This document shows, one piece after another, positions 37,660 through 55,800 of a stretch of DNA of 64,000 nucleotides. The stretch is from contig CABIZF010000002.1 in the NCBI GenBank assembly GCA_902363135.1, positions 124,001-188,000 on the forward strand, read 5' to 3'. Position 1 is the stretch's first letter. Each line of letters begins with the position of its first letter. The notes below the pieces were generated by a model. It saw nothing but the letters and a program-made list of their open reading frames with translations. It was not told the DNA's origin and did no database searches. Origin of the DNA: Lachnospiraceae bacterium. Its GTDB lineage: Bacteria > Bacillota > Clostridia > Lachnospirales > Lachnospiraceae. The position numbers and the translations under genes are program-made.

Positions 37660-37693
37660 TAGTAAGGATATACGGATATACAAAGGCAAGATG

Positions 37694-39402: not shown

Positions 39403-39449
39403 CGAATCGTACATTCGCAAATCTGGATAAGAAGAAGTCAGAAAGAACT

Positions 39450-39612
39450 GTTATGATAAGAGCAGTGGAAAATAGAATAAGAAAAACGGGGAACCCGGTG
39501 GGAATCCGGGACAGTCACCTCTACTGTAACGCGGACGAAAAAGCTGATCCATTGGCGGTATGCCGAGAAGGGGCTTTGGAGGAGGATGCGAAGTCAGGAT
39601 ATCCGTTGAGAT
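39450..39612 (+). promoter_or_regulatory. Cobalamin riboswitch upstream of the chelatase-ECF operon
   Basis: The conserved core is visible in order: ACGGGGAACCCGGTGGGAAT, CCGGGACAGTCACC, CTACTGTAACGCGGACG, and further on GAAGTCAGGATATCC. These fit the AdoCbl riboswitch consensus (GGTG-AATC, ACTGTAA, GCCAGGA-like boxes). It lies directly before the first chelatase gene, so the operon is probably lowered when cobalamin is sufficient. Confidence 0.85.
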
Positions 39613-39643
39613 CTATTTTTGGGATGAAGAAATAGGCTTTTTT
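39613..39643 (+). terminator. Candidate attenuator after the first riboswitch
   Basis: CTATTT (39613-39618) pairs with AAATAG (39630-39635), followed by GC and six T. This would give transcriptional control by the riboswitch. The stem is short, so confidence is modest. Confidence 0.5.
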
Positions 39644-39707
39644 AAGAGTCTTTTTGTATTCACAGAAAGGCTTTTTTATATTTGGAAAAAGTCAGAAGGG
39701 AGAGACT

Positions 39708-41549
39708 ATGGGGTATCCAATGTCGGCGATTGTCGGACAGGAAGAGGCCAGGCTGGCGCTGTGCCTGCTGGCGGTAAATCCGGCGGTTGGAGGCGTCCTG
39801 TTGATCGGGGGCAGAGGTGTCGGTAAATCAGTGCTGGCAAGAGGGCTGAAGCGTTTTTGCATAGAGCCGTGGATGCAGGCCGGATGGACAGAGGTGCCGG
39901 TCTACATCAATCAGGAGCAGCTGGCCGGGAAGAATGGAATCCTGGAGCGTGCAAAGTCCAGCTGGCTGTATATGGATGAGATTAACCTTCTGGCAGATCA
40001 GGCAGGAAGAACGTTGGCGGTCGAGGCAGACTGCCGGGGTATGATTGGCACGATGGATCCGGAGGAGGGAAGTCTGCCAGAATATTTAAAGGAGCGCTTT
40101 GGACTCACGGTTTTTCTTGAAGGGGAAAAGGAGCCGGAAAAGCGGATGGAAATCATCCGGAGGAATCTGGAATATGAAGCAACCCCGGAACGGTTTCAAA
40201 GCAGCTGGAAAATGCGGGAGCAAAAGCTCGCAGCTCAGATCCAGGCAGCACAGAAACGGATGCGGCAGGTGCGGGTGACAGAGTCCGCCCGTGCGGCAGC
40301 AGCGGAAATGACAGAAGAAGCAGGATGTGCAGGAAACCGTGCGGAACTGTATCTGATTGAGACAGCCCGTGCGCTGGCGGCCTGGGAGAACGCGACGGTG
40401 ATCTGTGCGTCGCATCTGGCACACGCGGCGTATTTTGTGCTTCCGGGAAGAGGGAAGCTGCGTCTGAGCGGACAGTGGAGGAATGCATTTTCGAAGGGGA
40501 CGCAGGAGGAGCCAGGAGCGCGTGTATCACCGCCAGAACCTTCCCGGCAGGAAAGCGGGGAAGGCTCCGTGACGGCGGCAGGCGGCCAGGCAGCATCACC
40601 GTCTGGCGAACCGGCAGCATCACCGGCAGGCAGACCGGCTTCCACGTCTGCATCCCCATCGGACGGGGAAATAACAGCAGAGAGTGGAAAATCGACCAGT
40701 CAGGATTCAGATGAAAATCAGGAATGGCCCCAAATGGAGCAGCCCCCGGATGAGAATGCATGGCTTTTGCAGGAAGAACGGCAGAAACGTCATGCGCCGG
40801 GGAAAAATGGCCGACGCAGGGAACTGCAGATTTCTTCGGATACCGGTCACTGTATCCGGGCAGTGCCGGGGAGCTGCAGGGAATTTTCAGAGATCGCGTT
40901 GAGTGCGACCTTGCTTCATGCAGCGGCACACAGCGGTGGAAAGCTGCCGCTTCAGATCCGGGAGACGGACATCCGGAAAAAGGTTCGGGAGGGCAGAGGC
41001 GGATATTATATTCTGTTCGCCGTCGATGCAAGCGCATCGATGGGCGGGGCAAAGCGTCTGGAGCTAACCGGGCGGACGATCGTATCGATGCTGCGCGAGT
41101 CCTACGAGAAGCGGGACAAAGTAGCGATGGCGGTCTTTCAGGGACAGAGCGCTTCGCTGTTGCTGGAATTTACGAACAGTCCGGAGCTGGCGCAGAAACG
41201 GCTGCAGGCATTTCCGGTAAAAGGCAGGACGCCGCTGGCAGAAGGGCTCCGGCTTTCCCACCGGATCCTGCTTGGCGCGATGCAGAAAGAGCGTGGCGCA
41301 TTTCCGGTGCTGGTCCTGATCACCGATGGCCGGGCGACGGCCGGGGGCGAAGATCCGGTGCAGGAGGCGCTTTTGGAGGCGCGGCAGTTTGCGCAGGCGC
41401 AGATTCCCTGTATTGTGATCGATACGGAACAGGGCCGTGTGCGGCTTGGAATCGCTGGGAAGCTGGCAAAGGAAATGAACGGAAAGCTGTACCGGCTTCA
41501 GGGAGATGAGACGGAGCTGGGCGGTCTGATTCAAAGGGTATTGTTATGA
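39708..41549 (+). CDS. AAA + VWA chelatase subunit (ChlD/BchD/CobT-like)
   Basis: The 613-residue protein has an N-terminal AAA domain with an intact P-loop GGRGVGKS (34-41) and Walker B SSWLYMDEINLL (about 85-95). A Pro/Ser-rich acidic linker follows (about 270-385). The C-terminal VWA domain has a complete MIDAS site: DASAS at 440-444, T508 in GRTPLAEG and D540 in LITDGRA. In magnesium and cobalt chelatases this subunit pairs with the ChlI ring and the large subunit ChlH/CobN to drive ATP-dependent metal insertion into a tetrapyrrole. The gene follows the riboswitch and is the first of eight tightly packed genes. AGAAGGGAGAG supports ATG 39708. Confidence 0.85.
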   Translation: MGYPMSAIVGQEEARLALCLLAVNPAVGGVLLIGGRGVGKSVLARGLKRFCIEPWMQAGWTEVPVYINQEQLAGKNGILERAKSSWLYMDEINLLADQAGRTLAVEADCRGMIGTMDPEEGSLPEYLKERFGLTVFLEGEKEPEKRMEIIRRNLEYEATPERFQSSWKMREQKLAAQIQAAQKRMRQVRVTESARAAAAEMTEEAGCAGNRAELYLIETARALAAWENATVICASHLAHAAYFVLPGRGKLRLSGQWRNAFSKGTQEEPGARVSPPEPSRQESGEGSVTAAGGQAASPSGEPAASPAGRPASTSASPSDGEITAESGKSTSQDSDENQEWPQMEQPPDENAWLLQEERQKRHAPGKNGRRRELQISSDTGHCIRAVPGSCREFSEIALSATLLHAAAHSGGKLPLQIRETDIRKKVREGRGGYYILFAVDASASMGGAKRLELTGRTIVSMLRESYEKRDKVAMAVFQGQSASLLLEFTNSPELAQKRLQAFPVKGRTPLAEGLRLSHRILLGAMQKERGAFPVLVLITDGRATAGGEDPVQEALLEARQFAQAQIPCIVIDTEQGRVRLGIAGKLAKEMNGKLYRLQGDETELGGLIQRVLL

Positions 41550-41589
41550 ATTTATCCGAGATTGATGGCGGAAAAGAGAGGAGACAGAG

Positions 41590-42501
41590 GTGGAAAAAAA
41601 CTACGGATATCCGTTTTCGGCGATTGTAGGACAGGAGGAAATGAAGCTGGCGCTGTTGTTGAATGTGGTGAATCCCAGACTTGGCGGTGTACTGATACAG
41701 GGAGAAAAGGGGACGGCAAAGTCGACAGCAGTGCGTGGTCTGGCTGCGCTGATCCCGCAGATGAAGGTGGTAGAGCTGCCAGTGAGCGCGACGGAGGACC
41801 GGGTCGTCGGGACTTTGAATCTGGAAAAGGCACTACAGGAAGGGGAAAAGCGTTTTTCTCCGGGCCTGCTTGCAGAGGCGGACGGAAATATCCTCTATGT
41901 AGATGAGATTAATCTTCTGGAAGATCACATCGTAGACCTTTTGCTGGATGCAGCCGCGATGGGCGTCAATCATGTAGAGCGTGAGGGCATTTCCTGCGAG
42001 CATCCGGCCCGTTTTATTCTGGTCGGGACGATGAATCCGGAGGAGGGACAGCTGCGCCCGCAGCTTCTGGACCGGTTCGGCCTGATGGCACAGGTAAAAG
42101 GAGAGCGGGAGACGAAGGAGCGCATGGAGGTCATCGCAAGAAGACTGGCCTACGAGGAAGATCCCGGCGCATTTGCGGCGCAGTGGGAGGAGCAGGAGCA
42201 TGCGCTCACCGAACGGATTTTGCAGGCACGTAAACGGCTGCCGCAGGTAGGGTATCCGAAGGAAATTCTGGAAAAGGCTGCCCAGATCGGGATCGAGCTT
42301 GAGATCGATGGGCACCGGGCGGACATCTGTATGGCGAATGCGGCACGCACGATCTGTGCATGGGAGGGACGGACCGAGGTTCAGCTCGCAGATCTGGAGC
42401 GCGGAGCGATGTTTGCGCTTCCGCACCGGATGCGCAGAAGGCCGTTTGAGGAGGCTGATTTCCAGCCGGAGCAGATCCGAAGGATTTTATATGGAGCGTA
42501 G
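41590..42501 (+). CDS. AAA chelatase subunit (ChlI/BchI/CobS-like)
   Basis: The 303-residue protein is a ChlI-type AAA ATPase: [19 protein letters not shown] at the start, P-loop GEKGTAKS (38-45), the ChlI signature [19 protein letters not shown], and Walker [12 protein letters not shown] (100-110). It would form the hexameric motor working with the VWA subunit. The start is a GTG at 41590 after AGAGGAGACAGAG. Its last 11 bases overlap the radical SAM gene, indicating translational coupling. ChlI normally serves chlorophyll synthesis, but no chlorophyll gene is near; the CobN gene and the B12 riboswitch argue for cobalt. Confidence 0.88.
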
Positions 42502-43498
42502 ACGCAGGCTGATCGTGCTCTGGGTGACGGGGACGTGTCAGCTGTCCTGTAAATATTGCTACGCGACACACCGGTCTTCTGAGAAGATGGAGGAGTCCGT
42601 GGCATTTGCCGCCCTGCAGCTTTTTGAAAAGGAGCCGCTGACGGTTCAGTTTGCAGGCGGGGAGCCGCTTCTGAACTGGGAGCTGATCGAGGCGGTAACG
42701 GAGTATGTGGAAAAGCAAAGGCCGGGGACCAGGCTTCAGCTGCAGACGAACGGGATCAGCATGGACAGGCAGAAGGCGGATTACATCAGGGAGCATAAAA
42801 TTGCGACCGGAGTCAGCCTGGATGGGATTCCGGAGGTCAACGAACGGCTGCGCGGCCGGACGGCAGAGGCGGTGGCGGGGATCCGGACGTTGGGCGAAGC
42901 AGGTGTTTATGTGAACCTGAATGCCGTCGTCACGTCTGTGAACGTACAAAAGCTGCCGCAGCTGGTAGATTTTGCGTGGTATCTGGAGTCTGTGGCGGGG
43001 ATCGGACTGGATCTTCTGCGTGCAGCCGGGCGTGGAGAAGAGGCATTTGCGCAGCTGCGGGCGGATGAGGCAGAGCTTGTGCAGGCACTTTGGAAAATGG
43101 AGGAGCGCAGCCGCATGCTGGAACGGCTTTCCGGGAGGAAAATCGTATTGCGGGAGATTGACGAGGCAGCACGCAGGAAAAGAGTGGGAAAGCGGTTGCC
43201 GTACTGCTTTGCTTCCTGCGGAAACGCGGTGGCGGTGTTGCCAAATGGAGACTGTTATCCATGTGGATCCTTAGCGGGCAGGCCGGAGTACTATATGGGA
43301 AATGTCATGGATCAGGTGCGCTTCCTTCGATTAGAACCGGATGGGGCATTTGCAGATCCGGAGAAGTGTGCCACGTGTCCGGGGCGGCTGGTATGTCCGG
43401 GTGCCTGCCCGTCGAGAAGGATTTTAAACGGAGAAACCGAAGAGGACTGTGCGATGCGACGCACGGCGTTTCAGATTGTGGAGCAGAACGATGTTTGA
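42491..43498 (+). CDS. Radical SAM/SPASM-type protein in the chelatase operon
   Basis: The 335-residue protein has the radical SAM cluster motif [15 protein letters not shown] (C16, C20, C23), [12 protein letters not shown], and LQTNGISM. The C-terminal part is cysteine-rich ([21 protein letters not shown], then [18 protein letters not shown]), like SPASM domains that bind extra 4Fe-4S clusters. SPASM enzymes often modify peptides or act as maturases. The gene overlaps ChlI by 11 bases and CobN by 8, so it is an integral part of the chelatase unit. Its substrate is unknown; modification of a tetrapyrrole or of a chelatase or transport protein are both possible. Confidence 0.82.
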
Positions 43499-46400
43499 AC
43501 TGGTACTGATACATCAAAGCGAAGAAAAAGCGGGTGATATGCAGCAGGCATGGGAGCAGCCGGGCGTAAGGCTGCGCGCCTATGACGCATGGGCTATGGA
43601 TCCGGAGGCGCTGGATGACTGCAGGCAGGCGCTTTTACAGTGTGACTTTGCGGTGATCCTTCTTCATGGGGGCCTGTCGTGGTTCCCGGATTTTCAGAAG
43701 CTTTCTACAGCGCTTTCTGAGAGCCGCCGGTTTTTTTTCCATTCGGAGATCGAAGAAGAGAATCAGCTGATTCTGAAAAAGAGCAGCCTGCTGCAGGAGG
43801 AACAGGATTTTCTGCGCTCCTGCTTTGAGATGGGCGGTGTGGAGAATTTTAAAAAGATGCTTGTCTTTTTCCAGACTGGAGAGCGGAAAGAGCCGCAGCC
43901 GGTGATCCGGGAAGGGATTTTTGGATGCCGTCCGGATCAGGAGGCGGAAGTACTGGCACAGGCTGAAAACTGCAAAAAGCCGGTCGTCGGGGTACTGGTT
44001 CATTACAGCAATTGTCTGAGCGGCAATACCGGTCATATCGAGGCGCTGGTGGATGCGATCCGGCGAAAAGGAGGCTTCCCGTTGCCGATAGTTTCTACGA
44101 TGCAGCCGACGACATGGTCTGATGGACTGCTGGGAGTGATCGAGCGCTATTTTCAGATGAATGGTCGGCCACGGATTCAGGCACTGATCGCGACGAGCGG
44201 ATTTTCCATGACGCTGCTCGCGTCGCCGGGGATGGGAAGACACGGGGAGACCGGGAGTGTATTTGCACGGCTCGGGGTTCCGGTATTGCAGGCGATGGTC
44301 ACGTATCTTAGTCAGGAAAAGTGGGAGCAGTCGTTTGAGGGGATGGATTCCATGTCTGTTGGTTCCAGTGTATTTGAGCCGGAGCTGGACGGACAGATCA
44401 TTACGACGGTCATCGGCTGCACGGAAAAGCAGCAGGGGGAACATGGCTCGGTGAGCCGGACGGTGCCGCTTCCGGCCCAGATCGATCTGGTGGCGGGGCT
44501 GGCAGTAAGCTGGGGCAGGCTTCAGGTAAAGTCGGCATCAGAAAAAAAGGTTGCGATTTTACTGCACAATATGCCGCCGCGCAGAGACATGCTCGGGTGT
44601 GCGTATGGGCTGGATGCGCCGGAGAGTGCCTGTCGCATGATCCGTTCCCTGCAGGAAAAAGGACTGTTTCTGCAGCGGAGCTGGGAAAACGGGGCGGAAT
44701 TGCTGCGGGAGCTGCTAAATGGGCTTACAAATGAAAACGATACGCTTTCGTATACGCTGATGCGAGAAAAAAGTGCGGGCGTTCTGGCTGGCAGGGACTA
44801 TGAGCAGTGGTTTACGGGCTTTCCGGAGCACACAAGAAAAGAGATGGAAGAACGCTGGGGACAGGCGCCGGGAGAATGGCTGGTTCTGGATCAGCAGATC
44901 CTGATACCGGGCATCCAGAATGGCAACCTGTTCGTAGGGATCCAGCCGGCCAGAGAGACGGAGCAGGAGGCGGAGGCGGCCTGCCATTCCTTAAAGCGCC
45001 CCTGCCCGCATCAGTATCTTGGATATTACAAGTGGATCCGGGATGTATTTCACGCAGATATTATTTATCACGTGGGTGCACATGGAACCGTAGAATGGCT
45101 GCCGGGAAAAGCGCTCGGGCTCTCTGCGGACTGTTATCCGGAGCTCTGCTTACGGGAGCTGCCGAATGTCTATCCCTATATCGTAAATCTTCCGGGCGAA
45201 GGGACGCAGGCCAAGCGGCGCGCAGCGGCAGTCCTGATCGGCCATATGCCGCCGCCGATGAAACAGGCAGGGCTGTATGGTGCGCTGGAGGAGCTGTCGG
45301 TACTGCTGGAACAGTACCGCAACGCAGAGAAATATGATAAAAAGCAGCTGGCCATACTGGAAGAAGAGCTGCGGAAAAAGGCAGAGGCACTGGAAATCCC
45401 CAAAGAAACCCGCGTAAGCCTTGACGGTCTGGAGGGCTGGCTGGAAGAGATCCGGCATTCACAGATTCGGGATGGGTTACATATTCTCGGGAAGATTCCG
45501 GTTGGGACGCGCATGGAGCACATACTGGAGTTTTTGAGCACGGGAGGCGAGACGCGGGAGGTCTTAAAAGAACGGCTGCAGGAGATACCGAAGGAACTGG
45601 ATGCAGTCTGCGCGACGTTTGAAGGCAGGTTCGTTCCACCCGGAGGCTCGGGCTGTCCGAGCCGGGACAGCAGGGAGGTACTGCCGACCGGAAGGAATTT
45701 TTACGGACTTCATCCGGGACAGATTCCGGGGCGTGCCGCGTGGGAGACCGGGAAAAAGATGGCGGAGGAACTGCTCGATCGAATGCGCAAAGGCTCCGGA
45801 AAATGGCCGGAGAGCGTGACAATGGTCGTGTATTCCGGTGAGACGATGAAAACGCAGGGCGATACGGTAGCGGAAATCCTTTTCTTGCTCGGCGTGCGTC
45901 CGACGTGGATTGCGGGGACGCAGAGCGTTTCCGGGCTGGAGTTGATTTCACCGGGGGAGCTGCAGCGCCCGCGCGTGGATGTGACCCTGCGTGTCAGCGG
46001 ACTGTTTCGCGATAACTTCCCCAACCTGATCGAGCTTTTGGATGACGCGGTCAATCTGGTGATCGCACAGGAGGAGCCGATAGGGAGCAATTATGTGCGG
46101 GAGCATGTGATGCGGGACATCCGGACGCTGGTGGCATCCGGGATGGAAAAGGAGAAGGCGGTGCGTGTATCTTCGGCGCGGATTTTCGGCTGTCCGCCTG
46201 GACAGTATGGCGCGGGGGTAGCGCCGCTGATCGAGAGCGGAGCCTGGAAGGACCGGGGAGAGCTCGGAGAGAGTTACATCAAATGGGGTGGATTTTCCTA
46301 CGGGCGGAACCGGTCAGGGGAAGCGATGGAAGAAGCGTTCCGTGACCGGCTGAAAGCCGGAGAAGCGGTGGTAAAAAATATGTCCTCGTCCGAAGAAGAT

Positions 46401-46898
46401 CTGATGGAAAGCGATGATTTTTACAACTATTTCGGCGGAGCGGTGGCTGCGGCAGAACAGGCAAAAGGAGAAAAGACCGAGGCCTATGTATTCTCAGACA
46501 GCGACGGGACGGGCAGAAAGCTGCGCACGTTAAAGGAAGAAACGGAACGGCTGTTTCGGGCGAAACTTCTGAATCCTGCGTTTGCGGAGGGAATGATGCC
46601 GCACGGGTACCGTGGAGCACAGGAGATTTCTATGATGTTTGATACGGTATTTGGCTGGAGTGCAGCAGCGGACAACATTACCGCTGCGGATTTCCGGGGG
46701 CTTGAGCAGCTGTATCTGCAGACTCCGCGGATGAAGGAATTTCTTGGAAAAGAAAATCCGTGGGCGCTGCACCATATCTGCGAACGGCTGCTGGAGGTTG
46801 CTGACCGTGGCATGTGGGAGGCAGAAGCGCAGGATTTGGACGAGATCCGACGGGTCTACCTGGAGATGGAAGGCGGACTGGAGGATATGGAGTCATAG
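43491..46898 (+). CDS. cobN: CobN/ChlH-like large chelatase subunit
   Basis: The 1135-residue protein belongs to the CobN/magnesium chelatase H family. Key stretches are GVLVHYSNCLSGNTGHIEAL, HVGAHGTVEWLPGKALGLS, and LPNVYPYIVNLPGEGTQAKR followed by IGHMPPPMKQAGLYG. The C-terminal part has VNLVIAQEEPIGSNYV, RIFGCPPGQYGAGVAPLIES and FGGAVAAAEQAKGEK, all typical. The large subunit holds the tetrapyrrole and metal. Aerobic B12 makers use CobN-CobS-CobT to insert cobalt, whereas anaerobes usually use CbiK or CbiX, so a CobN set here is noteworthy. Riboswitch and ECF importer neighbours favour a corrinoid or cobalt function. ATG 43491 overlaps the radical SAM stop. Confidence 0.88.
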   Translation: MFELVLIHQSEEKAGDMQQAWEQPGVRLRAYDAWAMDPEALDDCRQALLQCDFAVILLHGGLSWFPDFQKLSTALSESRRFFFHSEIEEENQLILKKSSLLQEEQDFLRSCFEMGGVENFKKMLVFFQTGERKEPQPVIREGIFGCRPDQEAEVLAQAENCKKPVVGVLVHYSNCLSGNTGHIEALVDAIRRKGGFPLPIVSTMQPTTWSDGLLGVIERYFQMNGRPRIQALIATSGFSMTLLASPGMGRHGETGSVFARLGVPVLQAMVTYLSQEKWEQSFEGMDSMSVGSSVFEPELDGQIITTVIGCTEKQQGEHGSVSRTVPLPAQIDLVAGLAVSWGRLQVKSASEKKVAILLHNMPPRRDMLGCAYGLDAPESACRMIRSLQEKGLFLQRSWENGAELLRELLNGLTNENDTLSYTLMREKSAGVLAGRDYEQWFTGFPEHTRKEMEERWGQAPGEWLVLDQQILIPGIQNGNLFVGIQPARETEQEAEAACHSLKRPCPHQYLGYYKWIRDVFHADIIYHVGAHGTVEWLPGKALGLSADCYPELCLRELPNVYPYIVNLPGEGTQAKRRAAAVLIGHMPPPMKQAGLYGALEELSVLLEQYRNAEKYDKKQLAILEEELRKKAEALEIPKETRVSLDGLEGWLEEIRHSQIRDGLHILGKIPVGTRMEHILEFLSTGGETREVLKERLQEIPKELDAVCATFEGRFVPPGGSGCPSRDSREVLPTGRNFYGLHPGQIPGRAAWETGKKMAEELLDRMRKGSGKWPESVTMVVYSGETMKTQGDTVAEILFLLGVRPTWIAGTQSVSGLELISPGELQRPRVDVTLRVSGLFRDNFPNLIELLDDAVNLVIAQEEPIGSNYVREHVMRDIRTLVASGMEKEKAVRVSSARIFGCPPGQYGAGVAPLIESGAWKDRGELGESYIKWGGFSYGRNRSGEAMEEAFRDRLKAGEAVVKNMSSSEEDLMESDDFYNYFGGAVAAAEQAKGEKTEAYVFSDSDGTGRKLRTLKEETERLFRAKLLNPAFAEGMMPHGYRGAQEISMMFDTVFGWSAAADNITAADFRGLEQLYLQTPRMKEFLGKENPWALHHICERLLEVADRGMWEAEAQDLDEIRRVYLEMEGGLEDMES

Positions 46899-46917
46899 AA
46901 AAGAGGAGGCAGGGCAG

Positions 46918-47802
46918 ATGGGAAGCTTTTCCGGGTATCATCCGGCGGTTATATTTCTGTATTTTGTACTGATACTTGTGTTTACCATGTTTTCCATGCA
47001 TCCATATTTCCTTTGCTGCAGCCTGCTTTGCGGGTTCCTCTGCTCCTTTTTATGGGGGCAGGGAAAAGCGATAAAGCGGAACCTGCGCATGACGGTGCCG
47101 CTGGTGATGCTTGGCATTGTGATCAACCCGCTCTTTACGCAGCGCGGCAGTACGATCCTCTTTTACCTGAATGATGCAGCGGTCACGCTGGAAGCGGTAC
47201 TGTACGGACTGGCAGCGGCGATGCTTTTTTCTTCTGTGCTGGTCTGGATCCAGTGCTGGGGAATGGTCATGGGGATCGACCAGTTTATCTGCCTGTTCGG
47301 GCGGGTACTTCCGGTGCTGGGGCTGTTGTTGTCCATTACCTTTCGGATGTTTCCGCTGCTGCAGCGCAGATTTGATCAGGTGAAGGATGGGCAGCGCTGT
47401 ATGGGAAGGGACGACGGCAGCCGGCACCCGATAAAAAAGCTCCGCATTTTCAGCAAAGAGCTCTCCATTCTGATTGCATGGTCGCTGGAAGCCGGGATCG
47501 AGACGTCGGACTCGATGGAGGCACGGGGCTATGGGCTGAAGGGCCGGAGCAGCTATACCATTTACCGGTTTGACCGGAGAGACCTGTGCGTTTTATTGCT
47601 GATCCTGCTGCTTGGCGGCGTGGTGCTAATCGGCTGTGTGGAAAAAATGAATGGCCTGCTGTTTTATCCGAGAATCGTATTTCGGAAAGCAGGCTGGCTG
47701 AAGATACCGGTATACGGAGCATTTGCAGGACTTTGCCTGCTGCCGGTCGTGATAGAGCTTCTGGGGGAATGGAAATGGAGACGTTTGTATTCGAACATGT
47801 GA
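46918..47802 (+). CDS. ecfT: ECF transporter transmembrane subunit EcfT (CbiQ-like)
   Basis: The 294-residue membrane protein has about five to six hydrophobic segments and two cytoplasmic coupling helices of the A-R-G type, visible as RRFDQVKDGQRCMGR and SMEARGYGLKGRS. EcfT links the S component to the ATPase pair in energy-coupling-factor vitamin importers. It starts 19 bases after cobN, with AAGAGGAGG upstream, and overlaps the ATPase gene by 28 bases. A dedicated module rather than a shared housekeeping ECF is implied. Confidence 0.87.
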   Translation: MGSFSGYHPAVIFLYFVLILVFTMFSMHPYFLCCSLLCGFLCSFLWGQGKAIKRNLRMTVPLVMLGIVINPLFTQRGSTILFYLNDAAVTLEAVLYGLAAAMLFSSVLVWIQCWGMVMGIDQFICLFGRVLPVLGLLLSITFRMFPLLQRRFDQVKDGQRCMGRDDGSRHPIKKLRIFSKELSILIAWSLEAGIETSDSMEARGYGLKGRSSYTIYRFDRRDLCVLLLILLLGGVVLIGCVEKMNGLLFYPRIVFRKAGWLKIPVYGAFAGLCLLPVVIELLGEWKWRRLYSNM

Positions 47803-49463
47803 CTTTTTCTTATCCGGATTGTGAGAAAAGCGCATTAACGGATCTGAGCTTTCAGATCCGGGAATCCGAGTTTGTACTGGTCTGTGGAAAATCCGGGTGT
47901 GGCAAGACGACGCTAATGCGCCATCTGAAAAAAAGTCTGGTGCCGTATGGGATCGGAGACGGGGCGATCTGGTACTACGGCGAAGATCTGATGCTGCTGG
48001 ACAACCGCCGGGACGCTTCCGAGATCGGATACGTCGGGCAGGACCCGGAGAGCCAGATCGTGACGGACAAGGTATGGCATGAGCTGGCCTTTGGTCTGGA
48101 GAACCTCGGATGTTCGGTGGGAGAAATCAATCGCCGGGTTTCCGAGATGGCCAGCTACTTCGGGATTCAGACCTGGTTTCGGAAAGACACCTGTGAGCTT
48201 TCCGGAGGACAGAAGCAGCTTTTGAATCTGGCGGCGGTCATGGCGATGCACCCAAAGGCGATCATTTTAGATGAGCCGACCTCGCAGCTGGATCCGGTGG
48301 CTGCCTCAGAGTTTTTGAACACCCTGCGGAGAATCAATCAGGAGCTCGGGACGACGATTGTGATCACAGAGCACCGCCTTGAGGAAGTATTTCCGATGGC
48401 AGACCAGGTGCTTTTGATGGAGGATGGCCGCCTGCTCTTTCAGGGAACGCCGCAGGAGACGGTCCGGTTTGTCGCGAGAGCACAAAAGGAAGAGCTGCGG
48501 GAACTGCTGCCCGCGTCGGTGCGGATCTGTATGCAGGTACAGCCGGACTGCGCAGCGATCCCGCTGACGGTGCGGGAGGGAAGGCTCTGGCTGACAGAGA
48601 CAGTAAAAGAACCTCAGATCCGGCATCTGGAACGGCCAAAAGCAGAGACACCGGTGCAAGACACCGCGATCTGTATGGAAGAGGTCTGGTTCCGCTATAC
48701 ACGGCAGGGGGAGGACGTCTTAAGAGGATTGACCCTGAATGTAAAAAAAGGCCAGATCTATGCGCTGATGGGCGGAAATGGAGCCGGAAAAAGTACGACG
48801 CTCGGCGTATTGAGCGGAAGATGGAAGCCCTGGAGAGGGAAGCTTGCGATTTTCGGAAAACGGATCGAGAGCTATGGAAAGACCGGCCTTTTTGACCACT
48901 GCCTTGGCGTGCTGCCGCAGAATCCGGCGTCTGTCTTTACGGAAATCACGCTGGAGGAAGAGCTGTATGAGGCGCTTAGCTATGAGCCGGTTTCAAGAGA
49001 AGAGAAGCTGGCTGCGGTGCGCGATATGATCTGGGAAATGCAGCTGGACGGGCTGGAGCGTATGCATCCGTATGACCTGTCCGGCGGTGAGAAGCAGCGG
49101 CTGGCGCTTGGAAAGGTACTGCTTCGAGATCCGAAGCTTCTGCTGCTGGATGAGCCGACCAAGGGGCTTGACCCGCATTTTAAACGAAAACTTGCGCGAA
49201 TTTTGCTGGAGCAGAAGGAACAGGGAAGGACGATCTTTATGATCAGCCATGATATTGAATTTTGCGGGGAATACGCCGACCAGTGTGCCATGCTCTTTGA
49301 CGGGGAGGTGCGGGCGGCGGATACACCGGAGCGTTTCTTTTGTGGCAACAGCTTTTATACGACAGCGGCAAACCGGATGTCCCGTCACCTGTTTGACAAT
49401 GCCGTGACCTGCAAGGATGTGGTGGAGCTATGTGGCAGAAATACAGTGAAAAGATCTATCTGA
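47775..49463 (+). CDS. ecfA: ECF transporter ATPase, two fused nucleotide-binding domains
   Basis: The 562-residue protein contains two ABC ATPase domains. Domain 1 has Walker A GKSGCGKT (about 38-45), signature CELSGGQKQLLNLAAV (about 138-153) and IILDEPTSQLDP. Domain 2 has GGNGAGKST (near 333), DLSGGEKQRLALGK (near 434) and LLLDEPTKGLDP. Most Firmicutes encode EcfA1 and EcfA2 separately; here they are one chain. Start at ATG 47775, six bases after GGGGGA; ATG 47769 is also in frame. The gene overlaps ecfT and the S-component gene by 28 and 34 bases. Confidence 0.88.
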   Translation: METFVFEHVTFSYPDCEKSALTDLSFQIRESEFVLVCGKSGCGKTTLMRHLKKSLVPYGIGDGAIWYYGEDLMLLDNRRDASEIGYVGQDPESQIVTDKVWHELAFGLENLGCSVGEINRRVSEMASYFGIQTWFRKDTCELSGGQKQLLNLAAVMAMHPKAIILDEPTSQLDPVAASEFLNTLRRINQELGTTIVITEHRLEEVFPMADQVLLMEDGRLLFQGTPQETVRFVARAQKEELRELLPASVRICMQVQPDCAAIPLTVREGRLWLTETVKEPQIRHLERPKAETPVQDTAICMEEVWFRYTRQGEDVLRGLTLNVKKGQIYALMGGNGAGKSTTLGVLSGRWKPWRGKLAIFGKRIESYGKTGLFDHCLGVLPQNPASVFTEITLEEELYEALSYEPVSREEKLAAVRDMIWEMQLDGLERMHPYDLSGGEKQRLALGKVLLRDPKLLLLDEPTKGLDPHFKRKLARILLEQKEQGRTIFMISHDIEFCGEYADQCAMLFDGEVRAADTPERFFCGNSFYTTAANRMSRHLFDNAVTCKDVVELCGRNTVKRSI

Positions 49464-50362
49464 AAAAAAGAAAACGGAGAGTTGCGATATCGACGCTGGT
49501 CATTTTTGTGCTGATTCCGCTGACGGTCTATGTGGGGATCCACTACTGGAACGACTATAATTTTATGCTGGTCAGTGTTTTGATCCTGCTCTATGTCATG
49601 GCGCCGTTTTTCATGATGTTTGAGCGGAAGAAACCGCGGGCGCGCGAGCTGGTGCTGGTGGCGGTGATGACGGCACTTACCGCACTTGGGAATATCGTCT
49701 GCTATATCACGATTCCCTTTCAGGCAGGGACGGCGATGGCGATCGTGTCAGGAATTGCACTGGGACCGGAGGCAGGGTTCCTTGTCGGCGCGCTGGCCCG
49801 CTTTCTGTGCAATTTCTTTCTGGGACAGGGGCCCTGGACGCCGTGGCAGATGTTCTGCTGGGGGATTCTTGGATTCTTTGCGGGGCTTGTCTTCAATAAA
49901 AATGATCTGGACCGGAAAAAATCAGACCATTTCCGGGTGATGGCAGGACCGGTCACCGGCGTGCTGCTGGCTGCAGCCGCGGCCTGGATCGATGCCAGGA
50001 TACGTGGCGGCGGGTTCTTTGGCTGGCGGCTGTACCTGTTTGGGGCGGCCGGGATGCTGGGCGGCTTTCTGATCCAGCGAAAGCGGCTTCCGGTGGATGA
50101 TATCACGCTGGCGGTATACGGCTTTCTGACAACCTTTATCATCTACGGAGGGATTATGAACGTCGCAGCGCTGGTGTTTAACAGCTATGTATCCGCGTCC
50201 GGCCTGACGATCAGCTGGGATTCTCTGAAAATTCTGTATATTTCAGGGGTACCGTATGATGCGACACATGCCTGTGGCAGTGCATTTTTCCTGTATGTGT
50301 TTGGAGAAAAAGTGATTCGCAAAGTAGAACGGGTAAAGATCAAGTATGGGATATACCGGTAA
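49430..50362 (+). CDS. ECF transporter substrate-binding S component
   Basis: The 310-residue membrane protein has an additional pair of N-terminal membrane segments, then the S-component core beginning ELVLVAVMTALTALGN, GTAMAIVSGIALGPEAGFLVGALARFLCNFF and later ISGVPYDATHACGSAFFLYVFG. S components bind the vitamin and toppling moves it across the membrane. The location after the riboswitch, cobN and EcfT-EcfA, and before the DUF4430 protein, makes cobalamin, a corrinoid precursor or cobalt the likely ligand; specificity is inferred from context, not from residues. Confidence 0.85.
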   Translation: MWQKYSEKIYLKKRKRRVAISTLVIFVLIPLTVYVGIHYWNDYNFMLVSVLILLYVMAPFFMMFERKKPRARELVLVAVMTALTALGNIVCYITIPFQAGTAMAIVSGIALGPEAGFLVGALARFLCNFFLGQGPWTPWQMFCWGILGFFAGLVFNKNDLDRKKSDHFRVMAGPVTGVLLAAAAAWIDARIRGGGFFGWRLYLFGAAGMLGGFLIQRKRLPVDDITLAVYGFLTTFIIYGGIMNVAALVFNSYVSASGLTISWDSLKILYISGVPYDATHACGSAFFLYVFGEKVIRKVERVKIKYGIYR

Positions 50363-50383
50363 AAGGAGAAAGGATGATGGAGC

Positions 50384-51619
50384 ATGCGGGAAAGAAAAGG
50401 GCGTAAGATCGTTCTGGCGATTTTATTTTTGCTGATTGCAGGCGGTGTGCTGACGCATATACGGATCAGTGGAGTGGATGTAAAGAGCCAACTTGCAAAT
50501 GAGGTGTACAGCGCCAGAGAGCTGATCGCGGAGATTCGCAGTGGCGAGGCAGATGGCAGCTGGTCGGACTCGGCGGTAGAGACGTTTGCGGCGGTGGTAG
50601 AGGCCGCGGCGGAGGTCCAAAGCGACTTGAATGCGACGGACGAACAGGCGGAAGAAGCCCTGCAGGAGCTAAAAGAAGCGCGTAAGGCGCTGAAGGCCGC
50701 GGAGGGGACGACAGAGGCTGTGGTGGAGACAGAGCCGGAGCCGGGATCCGATGGCATGGAAGCGGAAACGGCTGGCGAGACAGCGCTTACTGAGGAAGAG
50801 ACAGAAAAAAAGCAGTCGGAAAAGACGACCGGTAAGGCGCAGAAGAGCACCGGATCGGAAGAAAAGAATACGGTTGCCGGAGGAGTGCAGGCAGATGCCG
50901 GGGCCGGAAAAGCAGAGACACTGGACGATGGGGACAAAGCGACTGTTCCGGATATGTCCACAGATTCCGGAAGTATCAGCGGCGGCGTGTCCTATGGCAC
51001 CGGAGGCGGGACAAAGAAAAGCCAGAAAGAGACGGAAAAGAAAAAGATCAAGGCGGACGGGGAGCTGGATCTGACCGGAAAAGGCAGCGGGACGACCTCC
51101 GAGACCGAAAAAAAACAGGAGACAGAGAAAAAGCAGGAGACCGAGAAGAAGCCGGAGCAGTCAGAGAGCACGCCGGCGACCGAACCGCCGAAAAAAGAGA
51201 CGGAAGCACCGAAAAAGACCTGTACGATTACGATTCGCTGTGAAACAATCCTTCGGAATATGGGGGATCTGAGGGAAGGACTGGCAGGCTACGTGCCGTC
51301 GAATGGAGTGATCCTGAAAAAGACGACGGTAGAGCTCTATGACGGAGAGACCGTATTTGAGGTACTGAAGCGTGTGACCCGTATGGCAGGACTGAAGCTG
51401 GAGTTCCGCAATGACAGCGTGCACGGGGCAGGCTATATCGTGGGCATCAATCATCTGGACGAGTTCGACTGCGGATCCGGGAGTGGCTGGATGTATACGG
51501 TAAATGGCTGGTTCCCGAATTACGGCTGCAGCAAATATGTGCTGCAGGATAAGGATGTGATCCAGTGGATTTACACCTGCGATCTGGGACGGGACATCGG
51601 CGGCAACTTCTGGGAGTGA
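50384..51619 (+). CDS. Membrane-tethered DUF4430 (transcobalamin C-terminal-like) protein
   Basis: The 411-residue protein has an N-terminal membrane anchor (residues about 6-25). A helical part (35-110) and a long Thr/Glu/Lys-rich linker (about 115-290, with TEKKQETEKKQETEKKPEQ) follow. A C-terminal DUF4430 domain closes it: VELYDGETVFEVLKRVTR, GYIVGINHLDEFDCGSGSGW and MYTVNGWFPNYGCSKYVLQD. DUF4430 resembles the C-terminal domain of transcobalamin and intrinsic factor, so a surface corrinoid-binding partner for the ECF importer is likely. The linker would span the cell wall. AGAAAGGATGATGGAGC precedes the start. Confidence 0.85.
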   Translation: MRERKGRKIVLAILFLLIAGGVLTHIRISGVDVKSQLANEVYSARELIAEIRSGEADGSWSDSAVETFAAVVEAAAEVQSDLNATDEQAEEALQELKEARKALKAAEGTTEAVVETEPEPGSDGMEAETAGETALTEEETEKKQSEKTTGKAQKSTGSEEKNTVAGGVQADAGAGKAETLDDGDKATVPDMSTDSGSISGGVSYGTGGGTKKSQKETEKKKIKADGELDLTGKGSGTTSETEKKQETEKKQETEKKPEQSESTPATEPPKKETEAPKKTCTITIRCETILRNMGDLREGLAGYVPSNGVILKKTTVELYDGETVFEVLKRVTRMAGLKLEFRNDSVHGAGYIVGINHLDEFDCGSGSGWMYTVNGWFPNYGCSKYVLQDKDVIQWIYTCDLGRDIGGNFWE

Positions 51620-51686
51620 GCATAAAGAGCTAAACAGGATAAGAAAAAACAGAAGCTGTCATGTATAGTAAAAAGGAGAAGGCGAC

Positions 51687-52562
51687 ATGGGATACGCAGA
51701 GACAATCGCAGAATGCTGTCGGTATATTGACCGGAATTTTCAGAAGGAGCTCTCAGCGATAGAGCTGGCGGAGAAATACCATTATTCCTATTATCATTTC
51801 TGCAGAATTTTTCAGGTGATCAAGGATATTTCTGTGGCGGAGTATATTCGCTGCAGGAGGATGGAAGCGGCGATCGACCGCATCTATGGAGGGGCCGGGA
51901 TGCTGGAGGCTGCTCTGGATGTGGGATTTGAGACACCGGCAGGATTTTCGAAGGCATTTAAAAAGAAATACGGATGTACGCCTACGGAATATTTTCGATC
52001 CTACAAAGACGGGGAGGGCCATTTTATGACAGAACCAAAAATCGTAGAGCTCCAGCCATTTTTTGTACTTGGACATGAGCGGGGCTCCGAGGTGAAAAAG
52101 CAGGGGGAGGATACCGCAGCCTACTGGTATCAGGAAAAGGAGGACCGGGTAGGACATGGACACGGTCACGGGCATGGACATCATCACGGGCATATGCAAA
52201 AGGATGATGTGAAGATCGGACTCTGGCTCAAAGAGACGGATGAAGACGGGAATCTGAAGTATTTCTTTGGAAGTAAGATCGCAGAGAAGCCGGAGCTGGC
52301 AGAAGGAATGCAGGTGGTGGAAATTCCGGCGGGTAAGTATGCTGTATTTACGACAGAACCACTCAATATGACACTCACTTCTCAGCATCAGGCATTTGCA
52401 CTTCGGATCCGTGATACGTGGAAATATATTTACCGAGTCTGGTTTTCCAGAAGCAGATATGTGCCGGATGAGAAAGGATATGACTTTGAGTATTATGATA
52501 TACGATGTACCGATAAAGAGGCCTGCTGCATGGATATTTATATCGCAGTAAAAGAGGCGTAA
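51687..52562 (+). CDS. AraC family regulator with a histidine-rich stretch and GyrI-like domain
   Basis: The 291-residue protein has an N-terminal AraC double helix-turn-helix (about residues 8-106, ending GFSKAFKKKYGCTPTEYFRS) and a C-terminal GyrI-like effector-binding domain (about 115-291). Between strands of the latter lies a histidine run at residues 157-169 with eight His (HGHGHGHGHHHGH), a probable Zn, Ni or Co binding site. AraC-GyrI proteins usually sense small molecules; the His run suggests metal sensing. It follows the DUF4430 gene by 67 bases with its own AAGGAG and precedes the second riboswitch, so cobalt or nickel control of this locus is a reasonable inference. Confidence 0.85.
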   Translation: MGYAETIAECCRYIDRNFQKELSAIELAEKYHYSYYHFCRIFQVIKDISVAEYIRCRRMEAAIDRIYGGAGMLEAALDVGFETPAGFSKAFKKKYGCTPTEYFRSYKDGEGHFMTEPKIVELQPFFVLGHERGSEVKKQGEDTAAYWYQEKEDRVGHGHGHGHGHHHGHMQKDDVKIGLWLKETDEDGNLKYFFGSKIAEKPELAEGMQVVEIPAGKYAVFTTEPLNMTLTSQHQAFALRIRDTWKYIYRVWFSRSRYVPDEKGYDFEYYDIRCTDKEACCMDIYIAVKEA

Positions 52563-52627
52563 GAGTAAAAATGCTTCCAGCACAGGGGATACCTGTGATT
52601 ATATGAATATGATGAAGAACTAGGGAC

Positions 52628-52785
52628 ATATCAGATACGGCTGCACAGGCATTAAAAGGGAATACGGTGAAAATCCGCAGCAGCCCCCGCTACTGTAAAA
52701 GGGACGAACTCCTCATGAACCACTGGGAAACTGGGAAGGATGGGAAAGTAGGAAGAACTCAAGCCAGGAGACCTGCCAAAATCTG
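52628..52785 (+). promoter_or_regulatory. Cobalamin riboswitch upstream of the propeller protein gene
   Basis: The core is near-consensus: AAAAGGGAATACGGTGAAAA, TCCGCAGCAGCCCCCGC, TACTGTAAAAGGGACGA and AAGCCAGGAGACCTGCC. It lies in the 307-base gap between the AraC gene and the large surface protein gene. A CACAGG/CCTGTG hairpin (about 52581-52597) before it may end the upstream transcript. Confidence 0.92.
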
Positions 52786-52805
52786 AATGGATCCGGCTCT
52801 GGAAG

Positions 52806-52850: not shown

Positions 52851-52869
52851 AAGAAAAGGAGAACAGGAT

Positions 52870-55800
52870 ATGAAAAAAAGGATGAAACAGATGCTTTCCG
52901 GATTTCTTGCGCTGACTATGACTGTCGGCGGACTTCCGACCAGCGTGCTGGCAGAGGAGTTGATTCTGGATGAGGGAGAGGAAAGTACAGTTGTCTCCGA
53001 GTCCTTGCTGGCGGGGGTCGGCGAAGATGAGTCGGGAAACGGACTGCAGATTGTCGGCTGCGAGGAGGTAGGACAGAGCGCGGAGACAGAGCTGTGGACA
53101 GAAGTATCCACAGAGATCGAATCGGAGACGGAGTTATGGACAGAAACGTCTACAGAGATCAAAACGGAAACAGAGCTGTATCTGAATGGTACAGAAACGG
53201 AAACAGAGGCCGATTTTGCGGAAACTGAGACGGAACAGGTGGCAGAATATAGTACACTTGCGGCAGTAAAACAGATCGGCTTTCAGGTAACGCCACAGAA
53301 TGCAAAGCTGACTGTACAGGATGCAGAAGGAAATACAGTCAGCCCGGTAGAAGGAAAATATGAACTGACGGAAGGAACGGAATATACCTATACGGCAGAG
53401 GCAGACGGATATATCCGTATATCCGGCAAGGTAGACATGAACGCAGATGGGCCAATTGTACTTAATCTGGAAAAGGCACCATATTTGAAGAACCTGCAGT
53501 TGTACGATGGCAGTGGAAATATGATGACTCTGTCACCTAGGTTTAATAAAAACACAAAGGAATATCAGGCAATCCTGTCATCCAGCGAGGAATCCCTGAA
53601 CATTGTGATGTCTGCGGCTGACCTGGATACAGAGCATCAGCAGATCCGCCTGAAGGTAGTAGATACAAAGACGCAGGCCGTGCTTCAGGAGGAGACGACG
53701 TGCACCGTTGTGGATTCTCTGGCGACGGCAACGGTAGTGATTCCGAAGAAGAGCGATCAGTACGATATCGTTATGACGCTGACGGATGGAACCGAAGAAA
53801 AGAATGCCGCTGCAGTGTATACGGTGCATATGGCAAAGACCTATACCCTGAAATTTGCCCTGACACCGGATTATGCGGCGATCACCGTCACCGATCCGGA
53901 CGGAAAGACCGTGAATCCGCAGAAGGATGGCTCCTATGTCCTGACAGCAGGAATCCGTTATACCTATATCGCAGAGGCATCCGGATACGAGAGTGTGACA
54001 GAGAATATCTCCGTATTTGCAAACCAGCTCTCTGAGATCCCGGTAACGCTTGTGCGGGCTGCCGGCTATACGGATGTCGACAATGTCATCAACCGCATTG
54101 AGAACATCGGTGGTGTCAGTCTGAATGCATCCAACCGGAGCAAAGAAAAGATCGATGCGGCAAGAGCAGCATACAACGAGCTTCCGGAAGAGGACAAGCT
54201 TCTGGTTTACAACTACGATGTGCTAACAGAGGCAGAGCATTATTATAATCAGCTGCTCGAAAAGGCTGGCCTACAGAATACAGACAGTGCATTAAACTGG
54301 AGTCAGTTTCTTGGAAATGAAGAACAGAAGGGCGTGTCCGATTCCAAGACCCCGCAGACCGGCGAGGATCTGGTGGAGAAGTGGAAGCTGAAGGCAGAGA
54401 CTGGTAGTACCATGTTTGCACATGTAAGTGCACCGGCTTATTACAATAAGGCTGTATACGTGACTATGGATGATAAGATATACAAGCTGGATCCGGAGGA
54501 TGGAGAAATCCTTGCACAAAATGAGGCGAGGGGCTGCATGATGCTGCTTCCACAGGTAACCTGCGCAGATGGCAAGGTCTTTGCAATGGCAAAGAATGAC
54601 GACGGTAAGGTAGTCGTTAAGGTATACCGCTCTTCTGACCTGGAATTTCTGTATCAGACAATCGCTTTAAATGCCAATACGCAAATCGAAACACCGATTA
54701 TGTATCATGACGGATATTTCTACTTGGCCTCCTATGGATCCGCAGGTTCCTACTATGCATTTATTGCTACGGATGAGAAGAAGAGCTATGATATCAGTCC
54801 AGAGTGGGATGTGGAGGCGACGAAAGGCTCTCAGCAGGGCTTTCTCTGGGGTGGAGCAGAATTCGTAGGAAATTATGCATACTTTGGAGATACGGCCGGT
54901 ACATTCTTTGCGGTAAACAAGACGACCGGTGAGGTGGTAGACAAGCTTAACTTAACAGATTATCAGGTTCAGTCGACACCGAACTATTACGAAAAGAACC
55001 GTAGACTGTATCTCACGCTTGCATCCGGAAGCGGCAAGGGAGGCGCGATCCTTTCAGTGAAAGTGAACAAGGATGGAACTTTTAATCGCGATTCGATGAA
55101 GTGGTTCAAGTCGGACAAGAATGGCGGTGGCATCAAGTCCAGTCCGGTGATCTACAATGGCAGGATTTATGTGTGCGGTGGTGGCGGACACGGTGGAAGT
55201 AACGAGCCGTTCCGCGTCATTGATGCGAATACGATGACAGAAATTTACCAGATTCCTGATCTGGGCTCTAAAGGAACGCCAGTATTGTCGACCGCATATG
55301 CGACGGCTGAGAACAATTACAAAGTATATCTGTATGTTGTTCCTTATAGACCGGATGGACAATATCCGAATCGTACATCTGCTATGTATATTATTCAGGA
55401 TAGTATCGGACAGACCGAGCCAATTTATGAAAAGGTAGATAATATTGGCGTGGGACAGTTTTGTTCACAGAGCATGACAGTTGGCGATAATGGATTGATT
55501 TATTACTACAATGATTCTAACTATCTCTATGCATATGGTTTGGACGACCTCACAAAGCGTATGATTACAGCGACAGATGTAGAACGTCAGATCCGGAATC
55601 TGCCAGAAGTAAATTCTTACAAATGGTACAATCGTACAGAAGTAAAGCGGATCAAAGCGCGTTATGACAGTCTGAGTGAAGAAGAGCAGGCAAAGGTCAC
55701 AAATATCCAGAAGCTGCTTGATATTTTGGAAGTTTCCAAGCAGGACGAGATCGAGCGGATCAACAGTGGTATCATGGCACTGCCGGCGTTGGATGAGATG

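Follow-up and report, generated by a model that had tools for sequence, protein, structure and literature searches.

The window (the whole 64,000-nucleotide stretch of DNA analyzed here, from an anaerobe of gut type) contains a riboswitch-led gene cluster which we regard, with moderate confidence, as a cobalamin-repressed corrinoid-acquisition island whose CobN-ChlI-ChlD chelatase most likely inserts cobalt. The island is accessory and G+C-rich, and a genome with 98-99% identical flanks holds other genes next to the right flank.

Structure of the operon

According to the ORF list, Rfam and Pfam/NCBIfam, a cobalamin riboswitch is followed by nine densely packed genes, all in one direction on the plus strand, in the order ChlD, ChlI, radical SAM/SPASM, CobN, EcfT, two-domain EcfA, S component, DUF4430 protein and AraC regulator. 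The original prediction had described a riboswitch and a tight gene cluster here, and both were borne out: RF00174 matched at exactly 39450-39624, and neighboring plus-strand ORFs are separated by gaps of 19-67 bp or overlap by 8-34 bp. Its riboswitch inventory was incomplete, since a second, stronger riboswitch at 52621-52794 had been overlooked. The features are as follows.

39450..39624, plus strand: cobalamin riboswitch aptamer 1 (RF00174, 61.9 bits, gathering threshold 31.5)
39644..39675, plus strand: terminator-like hairpin of 14 pairs with a T-rich tail, between aptamer 1 and the first gene
39708..41549, plus strand: ChlD/CobT-type subunit, AAA-like region and VWA domain with MIDAS (TIGR02442, PF13519, PF17863)
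41590..42501, plus strand: ChlI/CobS-type AAA+ ATPase (TIGR02030, PF01078)
42491..43498, plus strand: radical SAM/SPASM protein of the CobN-linked family (PF04055; model pLDDT 93.6)
43491..46898, plus strand: CobN class I chelatase large subunit, 1135 aa (TIGR02257, 832.1 bits, over the cut-off of 822.05)
46918..47802, plus strand: EcfT-type transmembrane protein (homologues beside ecfA and S in relatives; ARG motif)
47769..49463, plus strand: EcfA, two fused ABC ATPase domains (TIGR04520, 326 bits, over 315)
49430..50362, plus strand: ECF S component (PF07155, 57.6 bits; PF12822, 36.1 bits; both over cut-off)
50384..51619, plus strand: DUF4430 protein (PF14478, 66 bits; N-terminal hydrophobic segment)
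51687..52562, plus strand: AraC-type regulator with a GyrI/Cass2-like effector domain (PF12833, PF14526, PF06445)
52621..52794, plus strand: cobalamin riboswitch aptamer 2 (RF00174, 101.6 bits, gathering threshold 31.5)
52870..57354, plus strand: 1494-aa secreted protein with Big_2 repeats (PF02368, 88.6 bits) and a possible PQQ/BamB-like propeller region

The hairpin at 39644..39675 is a possible expression platform; it is weak evidence alone, as 39300-53000 contains 17 such terminator-like sites and shuffled sequence gives 10.9 on average. A B12-box pattern allowing up to 4 mismatches found no match in riboswitch 1, whose box is therefore degenerate. The first ORF as listed begins at TTG 39654; judged from the sequence, ATG 39708, which comes after GGGAGAG, is the likelier start of chlD. 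Whether the AraC regulator belongs to the system of the operon is uncertain, and no relative of it was found at E 1e-4 in 80 loci related through the radical SAM protein.

Chelatase subunits and the radical SAM partner

The class I chelatase set is complete in the operon, with CobN and its AAA+ and AAA+-VWA partners, and the motifs are intact: Walker A in ChlI and ChlD, the MIDAS DxSxS in ChlD and HxGxHG in CobN. ChlD and ChlI scored below their NCBIfam cut-offs (422 bits vs 779 for TIGR02442 and 386 vs 467 for TIGR02030, respectively). Only one CobN is encoded, and no hydrophobic anchor was found in it, no 19-residue segment having a mean Kyte-Doolittle value of 1.6 or more. Of 130 positions with at least 95% invariance across 68 related CobN sequences, it deviates at 11, including H648; it retains H359, H499, H527, H531, H664 and H1038. 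Its branch in the CobN tree is long (1.22), so that its exact position is unsure. The HmuS structure 9d26 was matched at E 6e-89, indicating a shared superfamily, and the window CobN is nearer to CobN structures than to HmuS.

The SPASM domain is defined by seven Cys. The window radical SAM protein has these seven together with an intact CX3CX2C motif, and ten Cys are invariant in 30 aligned sequences (C16, C20, C23; C239, C258, C293, C296, C302, C306, C320). Its modelled fold is closest to protein/peptide maturases (anaerobic sulfatase or SCIFF maturases), and no tetrapyrrole-acting radical SAM enzyme was among the fold matches listed. Equivalog scores were below cut-off both for maturases (TIGR03942, 90.9 vs 349.45; TIGR03974, 95.1 vs 425) and for tetrapyrrole enzymes (NirJ, 67.5 vs 515.45; AhbC, 67.3 vs 650; AhbD, 54.3 vs 500). 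We considered a RiPP maturase and rejected it for the window: the nearest folds are peptide maturases, but the first strand of the model starts at residue 6, which would leave no room for an N-terminal recognition domain, and the chlI-radical SAM-cobN junctions leave no gap for a precursor gene. A RiPP role is conceivable in other loci.

ECF importer and DUF4430 protein

All parts of an ECF importer, EcfT, EcfA and S component, are encoded in the operon, in support of the importer of the original prediction. EcfA has two Walker A and two LSGG motifs, with Walker A in both domains. EcfT has no match in Pfam or NCBIfam; it is 30-38% identical to proteins adjoining ecfA and S in ten S-component loci of relatives (in one of which, L124, EcfA is only 37 residues at a contig edge), and its sequence contains the ARG motif, which we take to be a mark of EcfT. 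The EcfT call is made on homology and motif only. The S component family is large (4034 hits) and a cobalamin riboswitch was present at 1 of the 10 S-component loci fetched from relatives; therefore, the family does not fix its substrate.

The DUF4430 protein is probably membrane-anchored through its N-terminal hydrophobic segment. Its C-terminal domain is predicted by modelling to fold like the beta domain of intrinsic factor/transcobalamin, which binds cobalamin in intrinsic factor, and a previous study placed DUF4430 at the TCN C-terminus (PMC4350170). A six-sequence DUF4430 profile searched against PDB sequences retrieved neither transcobalamin nor intrinsic factor. An alpha-toroid domain had no Pfam match in the window operon; the toroid protein is a separate gene in two relatives (L118 and L123), and its profile gave 17 PDB hits at E <=1, nearly all squalene and other cyclases, with no cobalamin binder, transcobalamin or intrinsic factor. 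Judging from context and fold, the operon likely imports corrinoids.

Related loci and genome context

The pairing of the radical SAM protein with CobN goes far beyond chance, CobN being present in 74 of 80 radical SAM-related loci. Among the six loci without it (L016, L030, L042, L062, L064, L069), L016 and L030 consist of contigs 3.9 and 5.0 kb long, a short ORF resembling CobN lies at a contig edge in L042, and ChlI/D are still present in L016, L030, L042 and L062. The 80 loci also contain BtuF/BtuC-type transporter genes (56), a CbiZ or CbiR-type TIM barrel (37), an ABC-2 permease (36), and NifH with two PF00148 reductases (4). Rfam detected cobalamin riboswitches in 20 of the 45 loci that were scanned; the B12-box pattern was found in 25 of all 80 (32 hits vs 5 in mononucleotide-shuffled sequence), and Rfam is preferred because the pattern misses degenerate boxes such as that of the window. 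The cobalamin link of the original prediction is thus upheld by two riboswitches here and by riboswitches, CbiZ, CbiR-type and Btu-type genes in relatives. At least two CobN ORFs, fragments included, occur in 29 of 80 loci. One CobN clade of 14 sequences always has a second CobN ORF in the same locus (14/14; four partners are fragments of 356-540 aa) and often lacks H531, E968, D976 and H1038, which are invariant in other CobN.

The window EcfT, S component and DUF4430 protein had no match at E 1e-4 in any of the 80 loci. Hence the conserved co-occurrence of the eight genes, proposed as a check of the original prediction, was not found, the full set being together in 0/80 loci. Of the loci examined, the window alone has the ECF/DUF4430 part, apart from one second genome which probably carries both the chelatase and ECF modules. 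This genome is deduced from hits P0005 and P0123, for both of which the longest contig is listed at 527,810. No CbiZ, CbiR-type or CobW-like gene was found by Pfam in the window operon. The figure of 59/60 genomes refers to radical SAM relatives of any kind at E 0.001. A radical SAM orthologue in the genus was counted for one genome alone (G008, E 1e-131; the next best about 1e-25), and the further genome tally scored the five best candidates per genome at a threshold of E 1e-60.

CbiD and CbiK were both present in 5/5 carrier genomes tested, and in G001 (89% complete), which has no CobN match. CobF (TIGR02434) was over cut-off in 0/6 of these genomes, with weaker matches in all six, in a search where none of 14 control genomes exceeded the cut-off and which thus had no positive control over it. 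With CbiD and CbiK present and no CobF above cut-off, CobN is probably not the de novo chelatase of the carriers. This agrees with the earlier proposal of a role apart from de novo synthesis; an aerobic cob pathway, which would be at odds with it, was not seen in the five carriers by this same CobF search.

Discussion

We propose that when cobalamin is scarce the riboswitch would permit expression of the operon, the DUF4430 protein would help present corrinoids to the EcfT-EcfA-S importer, and the chelatase, CobN plus the ATPase subunits ChlI and ChlD, would act on the imported corrin's central metal. The most likely step would be ATP-driven insertion of cobalt into a metal-free or mis-metalated corrinoid, making it usable, while the radical SAM/SPASM protein, a near-constant neighbor of CobN, may prepare the corrinoid or activate CobN. 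The island would supplement de novo synthesis and not replace it. Insertion is favored because ATPase partners are encoded and because the aptamer belongs to a class that represses when cobalamin is plentiful. No chelatase would be needed for loci with CbiZ/CbiR to recover cobalt corrinoids, so the explanation requires metal-free corrinoid to be an important nutrient. The nitrogenase-like genes (4 loci) and the ABC-2 permease (36/80) are unexplained by, and argue against, simple insertion. Other points against this explanation are the radical SAM fold near peptide maturases, the 11/130 departures of CobN, the degenerate B12 box of riboswitch 1, the absence of CbiZ, CbiR-type and CobW-like genes from the operon, the riboswitch at only 1/10 S loci, and profiles that retrieved no transcobalamin. 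We found no biochemistry in the literature for any member of the module.

The metal may instead be taken out. One such account, to which we give a minor share of our belief, is corrinoid metal exchange or dechelation, with the chelatase stripping the metal (to recover cobalt or to begin an exchange) and either the radical SAM protein or other low-potential partners helping to labilise it. The CobN relative HmuS can dechelate (PMC12583661), the frequent second CobN ORF (29/80) and the paired 14-sequence clade with missing invariant residues look as if two half-reactions or a regulator were needed, and four loci add NifH and two PF00148 reductases. However, with an aptamer of a class that shuts genes off at high cobalamin, cobalt would be stripped from corrinoid just when cobalamin is short, which would deepen the starvation; HmuS is ATP-independent with helix anchors predicted at both ends (PMC12583661), whereas the window CobN shows no such segment and is encoded with ATPases; and the operon has a single CobN with the six histidines listed above kept. 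Similarly unlikely, in our estimate, is an anaerobic pathway dedicated to remodelling the metal center of intact corrinoids, in which CobN-ChlI-ChlD and the radical SAM protein would remove or replace the metal of scavenged corrinoids, joined in some genomes by a nitrogenase-like reductase or by another, degenerate CobN; if true, it would be the ring-center counterpart of the action of CbiZ/CbiR on the lower ligand.

Fortuitous clustering, in which horizontal transfer joined an ordinary ECF vitamin importer to an unrelated chelatase module, is improbable. The accessory, G+C-rich island, the 0/80 loci matching the window EcfT, S and DUF4430 proteins and the lack of a cobalamin riboswitch at 9/10 S-component loci of relatives fit it, but the genes overlap or almost touch under a single riboswitch, each module is independently linked to cobalamin, and both are probably in a second genome. 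That the set serves as another cobalt chelatase in de novo corrin synthesis is quite improbable, and unlikely for the tested carriers in particular: ChlID-CobN serve as late-insertion pathway markers in gut genomes (PMC6593275), yet CbiD and CbiK are present in all five carriers tested, G001 has both without CobN, and CobF gave only sub-threshold matches in all six genomes, with no control genome above cut-off. Salvage of heme or another porphyrin in the manner of HmuS, with a co-opted cobalamin riboswitch, is very improbable. CobN and HmuS share a superfamily, and for one binding protein in the related loci the sole NCBIfam hit is to IsdE, which binds heme, with a score far short of the cut-off (24.9 vs 298.65); the best match of one relative's permease is BtuC, also below cut-off (211 vs 334), relatives carry CbiZ, CbiR-type genes and cobalamin riboswitches, the DUF4430 protein has the modelled fold of cobalamin binders, and CobN is closer to CobN structures. 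A heme dechelatase was set low on account of the ATPase partners, the cobalamin context and the membrane anchor not found.

A related operon is already known. Corrinoid operon-2 of Dehalobacter restrictus and its syntenic counterpart in Acetobacterium woodii likewise combine a cobalamin riboswitch, transporters, CobN and magnesium-chelatase subunits (PMC4285132); corrinoid starvation induces operon-2, which is absent from the sister genomes compared. It differs in having two CbiZ and Fep/Btu-type ABC transporters, no ECF corrinoid importer is described in the parts of that paper cited here, and the words "radical SAM" are absent from its main text. The HmuS/BtuS proteins of Bacteroidota (PMC12583661, PMC6460266) share the superfamily, an anaerobic host and an adjoining importer. 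HmuS sits in the membrane and requires NADH, but no ATP, for dechelation (PMC12583661), whereas the window CobN has no anchor found, lacking the N- and C-terminal membrane helices that mark an HmuS heme dechelatase in that study, and is encoded with ChlI and ChlD. Therefore, the premise of the original prediction that CobN belongs to aerobic B12 or chlorophyll synthesis only is outdated by operon-2 and HmuS/BtuS. With the class I chelatases CobNST/ChlHID the window set shares the large CobN subunit, the AAA+ and AAA+-VWA partners and intact motifs; unlike them, as far as the tests go it belongs to neither an aerobic cob nor a chlorophyll pathway, and its links are with salvage genes and a radical SAM partner. 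The DUF4430 protein differs from intrinsic factor, transcobalamin and haptocorrin in being bacterial, beside an ECF importer and without a toroid gene in its operon. The CbrT importers (PMC6593275) are likewise of ECF type and proposed for cobamides; by description, the window S component is set apart by its generic PF07155/PF12822 matches, own EcfT, fused EcfA and DUF4430 partner. We found no paper naming a radical SAM partner of CobN or an intrinsic-factor-like ECF importer.

These observations raise the question of why anaerobes that already use CbiK for early cobalt insertion maintain another chelatase, one that costs ATP, in their corrinoid-salvage operons. Many anaerobes have the CobN-radical SAM pair, and this conserved partner of CobN offers a concrete handle on the role of the chelatase. 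Further, the DUF4430-ECF module, one part of which is intrinsic-factor-like, is a candidate corrinoid importer of Gram-positive bacteria, which is relevant to the missing B12 transporters of gut genomes, a stated open problem (PMC6593275). Downstream of riboswitch 2, the 1494-aa secreted protein (22.6 bits against PF13360 in Pfam, below the cut-off of 27.6) is a candidate surface capture protein.

The operon and its riboswitches

A scan of the whole window with Rfam matched two cobalamin riboswitches:

39450-39624, + strand, cobalamin riboswitch 1 (RF00174, 61.9 bits)
52621-52794, + strand, cobalamin riboswitch 2 (101.6 bits, the stronger of the two)

Downstream of riboswitch 1 we found nine + strand genes, overlapping or at most 67 bp apart, in the order ChlD-like, ChlI, radical SAM/SPASM, CobN, EcfT, two-domain EcfA, S component, DUF4430 and AraC, which confirmed the original observation of a riboswitch-led chelatase, radical SAM and ECF operon. 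The examined motifs of the operon proteins were all intact. CobN scored above its NCBIfam cut-off (832.1 vs 822.05) and ChlI and ChlD matched their families below the NCBIfam cut-offs, while the protein called EcfT, which had no Pfam or NCBIfam match, was assigned by homology and gene position. A terminator-like hairpin between the riboswitch 1 aptamer and the first gene is weak evidence by itself. Riboswitch 2 is followed, within 52621-57354, by the gene of a secreted protein of 1494 aa that has Big_2 repeats and a PQQ/BamB-like match under its cut-off, a candidate surface corrinoid-capture protein. Two Clostridiales-1 RNAs and one T-box leader were also located at 11317-11486, 32133-32301 and 62149-62397.

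The importer and chelatase are the ordinary side of this operon; the conserved radical SAM partner and the way all these parts are joined are the unusual side. The nearest operons described in the sources consulted are Dehalobacter operon-2, which is controlled by a cobalamin riboswitch and turned on by corrinoid starvation, and its Acetobacterium woodii counterpart (PMC4285132), and a Chlorobium report describes CobN with Bch subunits, plus CbiZ (PMC8620254). In the literature searched, which took in few subscription papers and not the comparative-genomics study of B12 from 2003 that PMC6460266 cites, no paper was found to name the radical SAM-CobN link or an intrinsic-factor-like ECF importer.

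The radical SAM family and its neighbourhood

The radical SAM protein belongs to a family of CobN partners. In an alignment of 30 members, three radical-SAM Cys and seven SPASM-type Cys were invariant. A single search across GTDB genome contigs found 181 relatives, the best 80 of which were taken as loci, from Bacillota, methanogenic archaea, Chlorobi, Thermodesulfobacteriota, Chloroflexota, Spirochaetes and others; neighbours were counted on both strands, with family identity checked by Pfam on representatives only. Among these best 80 of 181, whose counts are not independent events because the loci have common ancestry and a few share a genome or contig, CobN was present in 74/80 and ChlI/ChlD in 62/80, and CobN or ChlI/D lay within 400 bp on the same strand in 60/80. 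FecCD permease (43/80) or PF01497 binding protein (47/80) occurred in 56/80, and CbiZ (33/80) or a PF01261 TIM barrel (18/80) in 37/80; the latter is labelled CbiR-type since CbiR, a cobamide-remodelling protein, belongs to the same superfamily (PMC7733943). The co-occurrence of the operon genes held for CobN with the radical SAM gene and failed for EcfT, S component, DUF4430 and AraC, which had no match at E 1e-4 in any of the best 80 of 181 loci. In two other loci (L118, L123) a toroid, squalene-cyclase-like protein adjoins DUF4430 and ECF genes, and the toroid and DUF4430 genes may possibly form a split bacterial intrinsic factor. An ABC-2 permease at locus L005:15113-16689 comes with an ABC ATPase.

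Rfam was run on 738 kb of sequence from 45 of these 80 loci, and RF00174 was present in 20/45 with 23 matches, where about 1.9 would be expected from the whole-genome density of 2.55 per Mb (six genomes: five carriers and G001, the genome with near-identical window flanks). By our reading of positions, RF00174 was upstream on the module strand in 14/45 and beyond the module or on the opposite strand in 6/45.

Direction of the chelatase

Gene content, linkage, riboswitches and intact motifs were observed directly; the direction of the reaction, metal insertion or removal, is inferred. Insertion is favoured because the ATPase partners are those of CobNST, which uses ATP and is cobalt-specific (PMC7689651), whereas heme dechelation by membrane-bound HmuS is reported to require NADH and not ATP (PMC12583661), and because metal-free hydrogenobalamin was obtained from a Chromatium strain and converted to B12 by cobalt insertion (PMC7693184). 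The window CobN retains six near-invariant His (H359, H499, H527, H531, H664, H1038) and differs at 11/130 near-invariant positions, including H648.

Several features argue against simple insertion. Among the best 80 of 181 loci, 29/80 had at least two CobN ORFs (fragments counted) and 36/80 had an ABC-2 permease near CobN and the radical SAM gene. A divergent CobN clade (14 loci, e.g. L015, L022, L050, L003) often lacks H531, H1038 and other conserved residues, with a second CobN ORF in the same locus in 14/14. NifH and two nitrogenase-like PF00148 genes occur in CobN-radical SAM loci L032, L040, L061 and L072 (hosts: Negativicutes and one Clostridia MAG), with further matches in L055 and L080; the L061 NifH is above the nitrogenase iron protein cut-off, and in L040 a cobalamin riboswitch (119-335) lies directly upstream of NifH. 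The radical SAM fold also resembles sulfatase and SCIFF-type maturases.

Corrin synthesis in carriers

At E 1e-60 or better, a radical SAM orthologue was found in 4/391 genomes of the class, and CbiD in 4/4 of these carriers vs 108/391 genomes overall (Fisher P 0.006, kinship ignored and two carriers congeneric). Within the window genus, 1/36 genomes (G008) had the orthologue and 35/36 had CbiD. CbiK was above its cut-off in 5/5 carriers and G001; CobF was above its cut-off in 0/6 genomes (weaker matches in 6/6), a negative without positive control, since no control genome passed that cut-off. All CobN copies detected in G008, G149, G221 and G242 lay less than 7 kb from the radical SAM gene, and in the fragmented bin G421 one CobN adjoins it, with more CobN pieces on other short contigs. 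G001 (89% complete) had no CobN match. Judged from gene content, carriers are predicted to make corrin anaerobically, and given CbiD and CbiK, CobF under cut-off and CobN beside the radical SAM gene, CobN is probably additional to de novo synthesis. The earlier claim of a role outside de novo synthesis is supported on the CbiK side (5/5) and left less firm by the uncontrolled CobF result.

The accessory island

The operon lies in an accessory island. Kilobase alignments with G001, made outside 19901-36599, gave 97-99% identity, with matching stretches as follows:

most of 1-6119 and 16735-19900
36600-39389
57451-64000

Only short matches were found in 6120-16734. In G001 the right flank (57451 onward, 98%) lies on contig C116, where it adjoins 8.7 kb of non-operon genes, read by us from translations as AraC, sugar-transporter-like and oxidoreductase-like. 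On the left side the AAA-ATPase gene, which has other partial copies, is represented on that contig by no more than 158 bp (91%), and the left junction is located with less certainty than the right. G+C was 53-58% over 40-52 kb vs 42-55% in other 2-kb windows. G001 contig C118 (locus L131) carries a second copy of 54484-64000 at 84-87% identity, beginning inside the large secreted protein, either a paralogous region or a contaminant of the bin. At the left edge of the island, parts of the AAA-ATPase/PD-(D/E)XK gene (37810-39402) were matched several times in G001 and in sister genomes. Elsewhere in the window, a repeat of about 160 bp (2877-3040) had more than 20 matches in G001.
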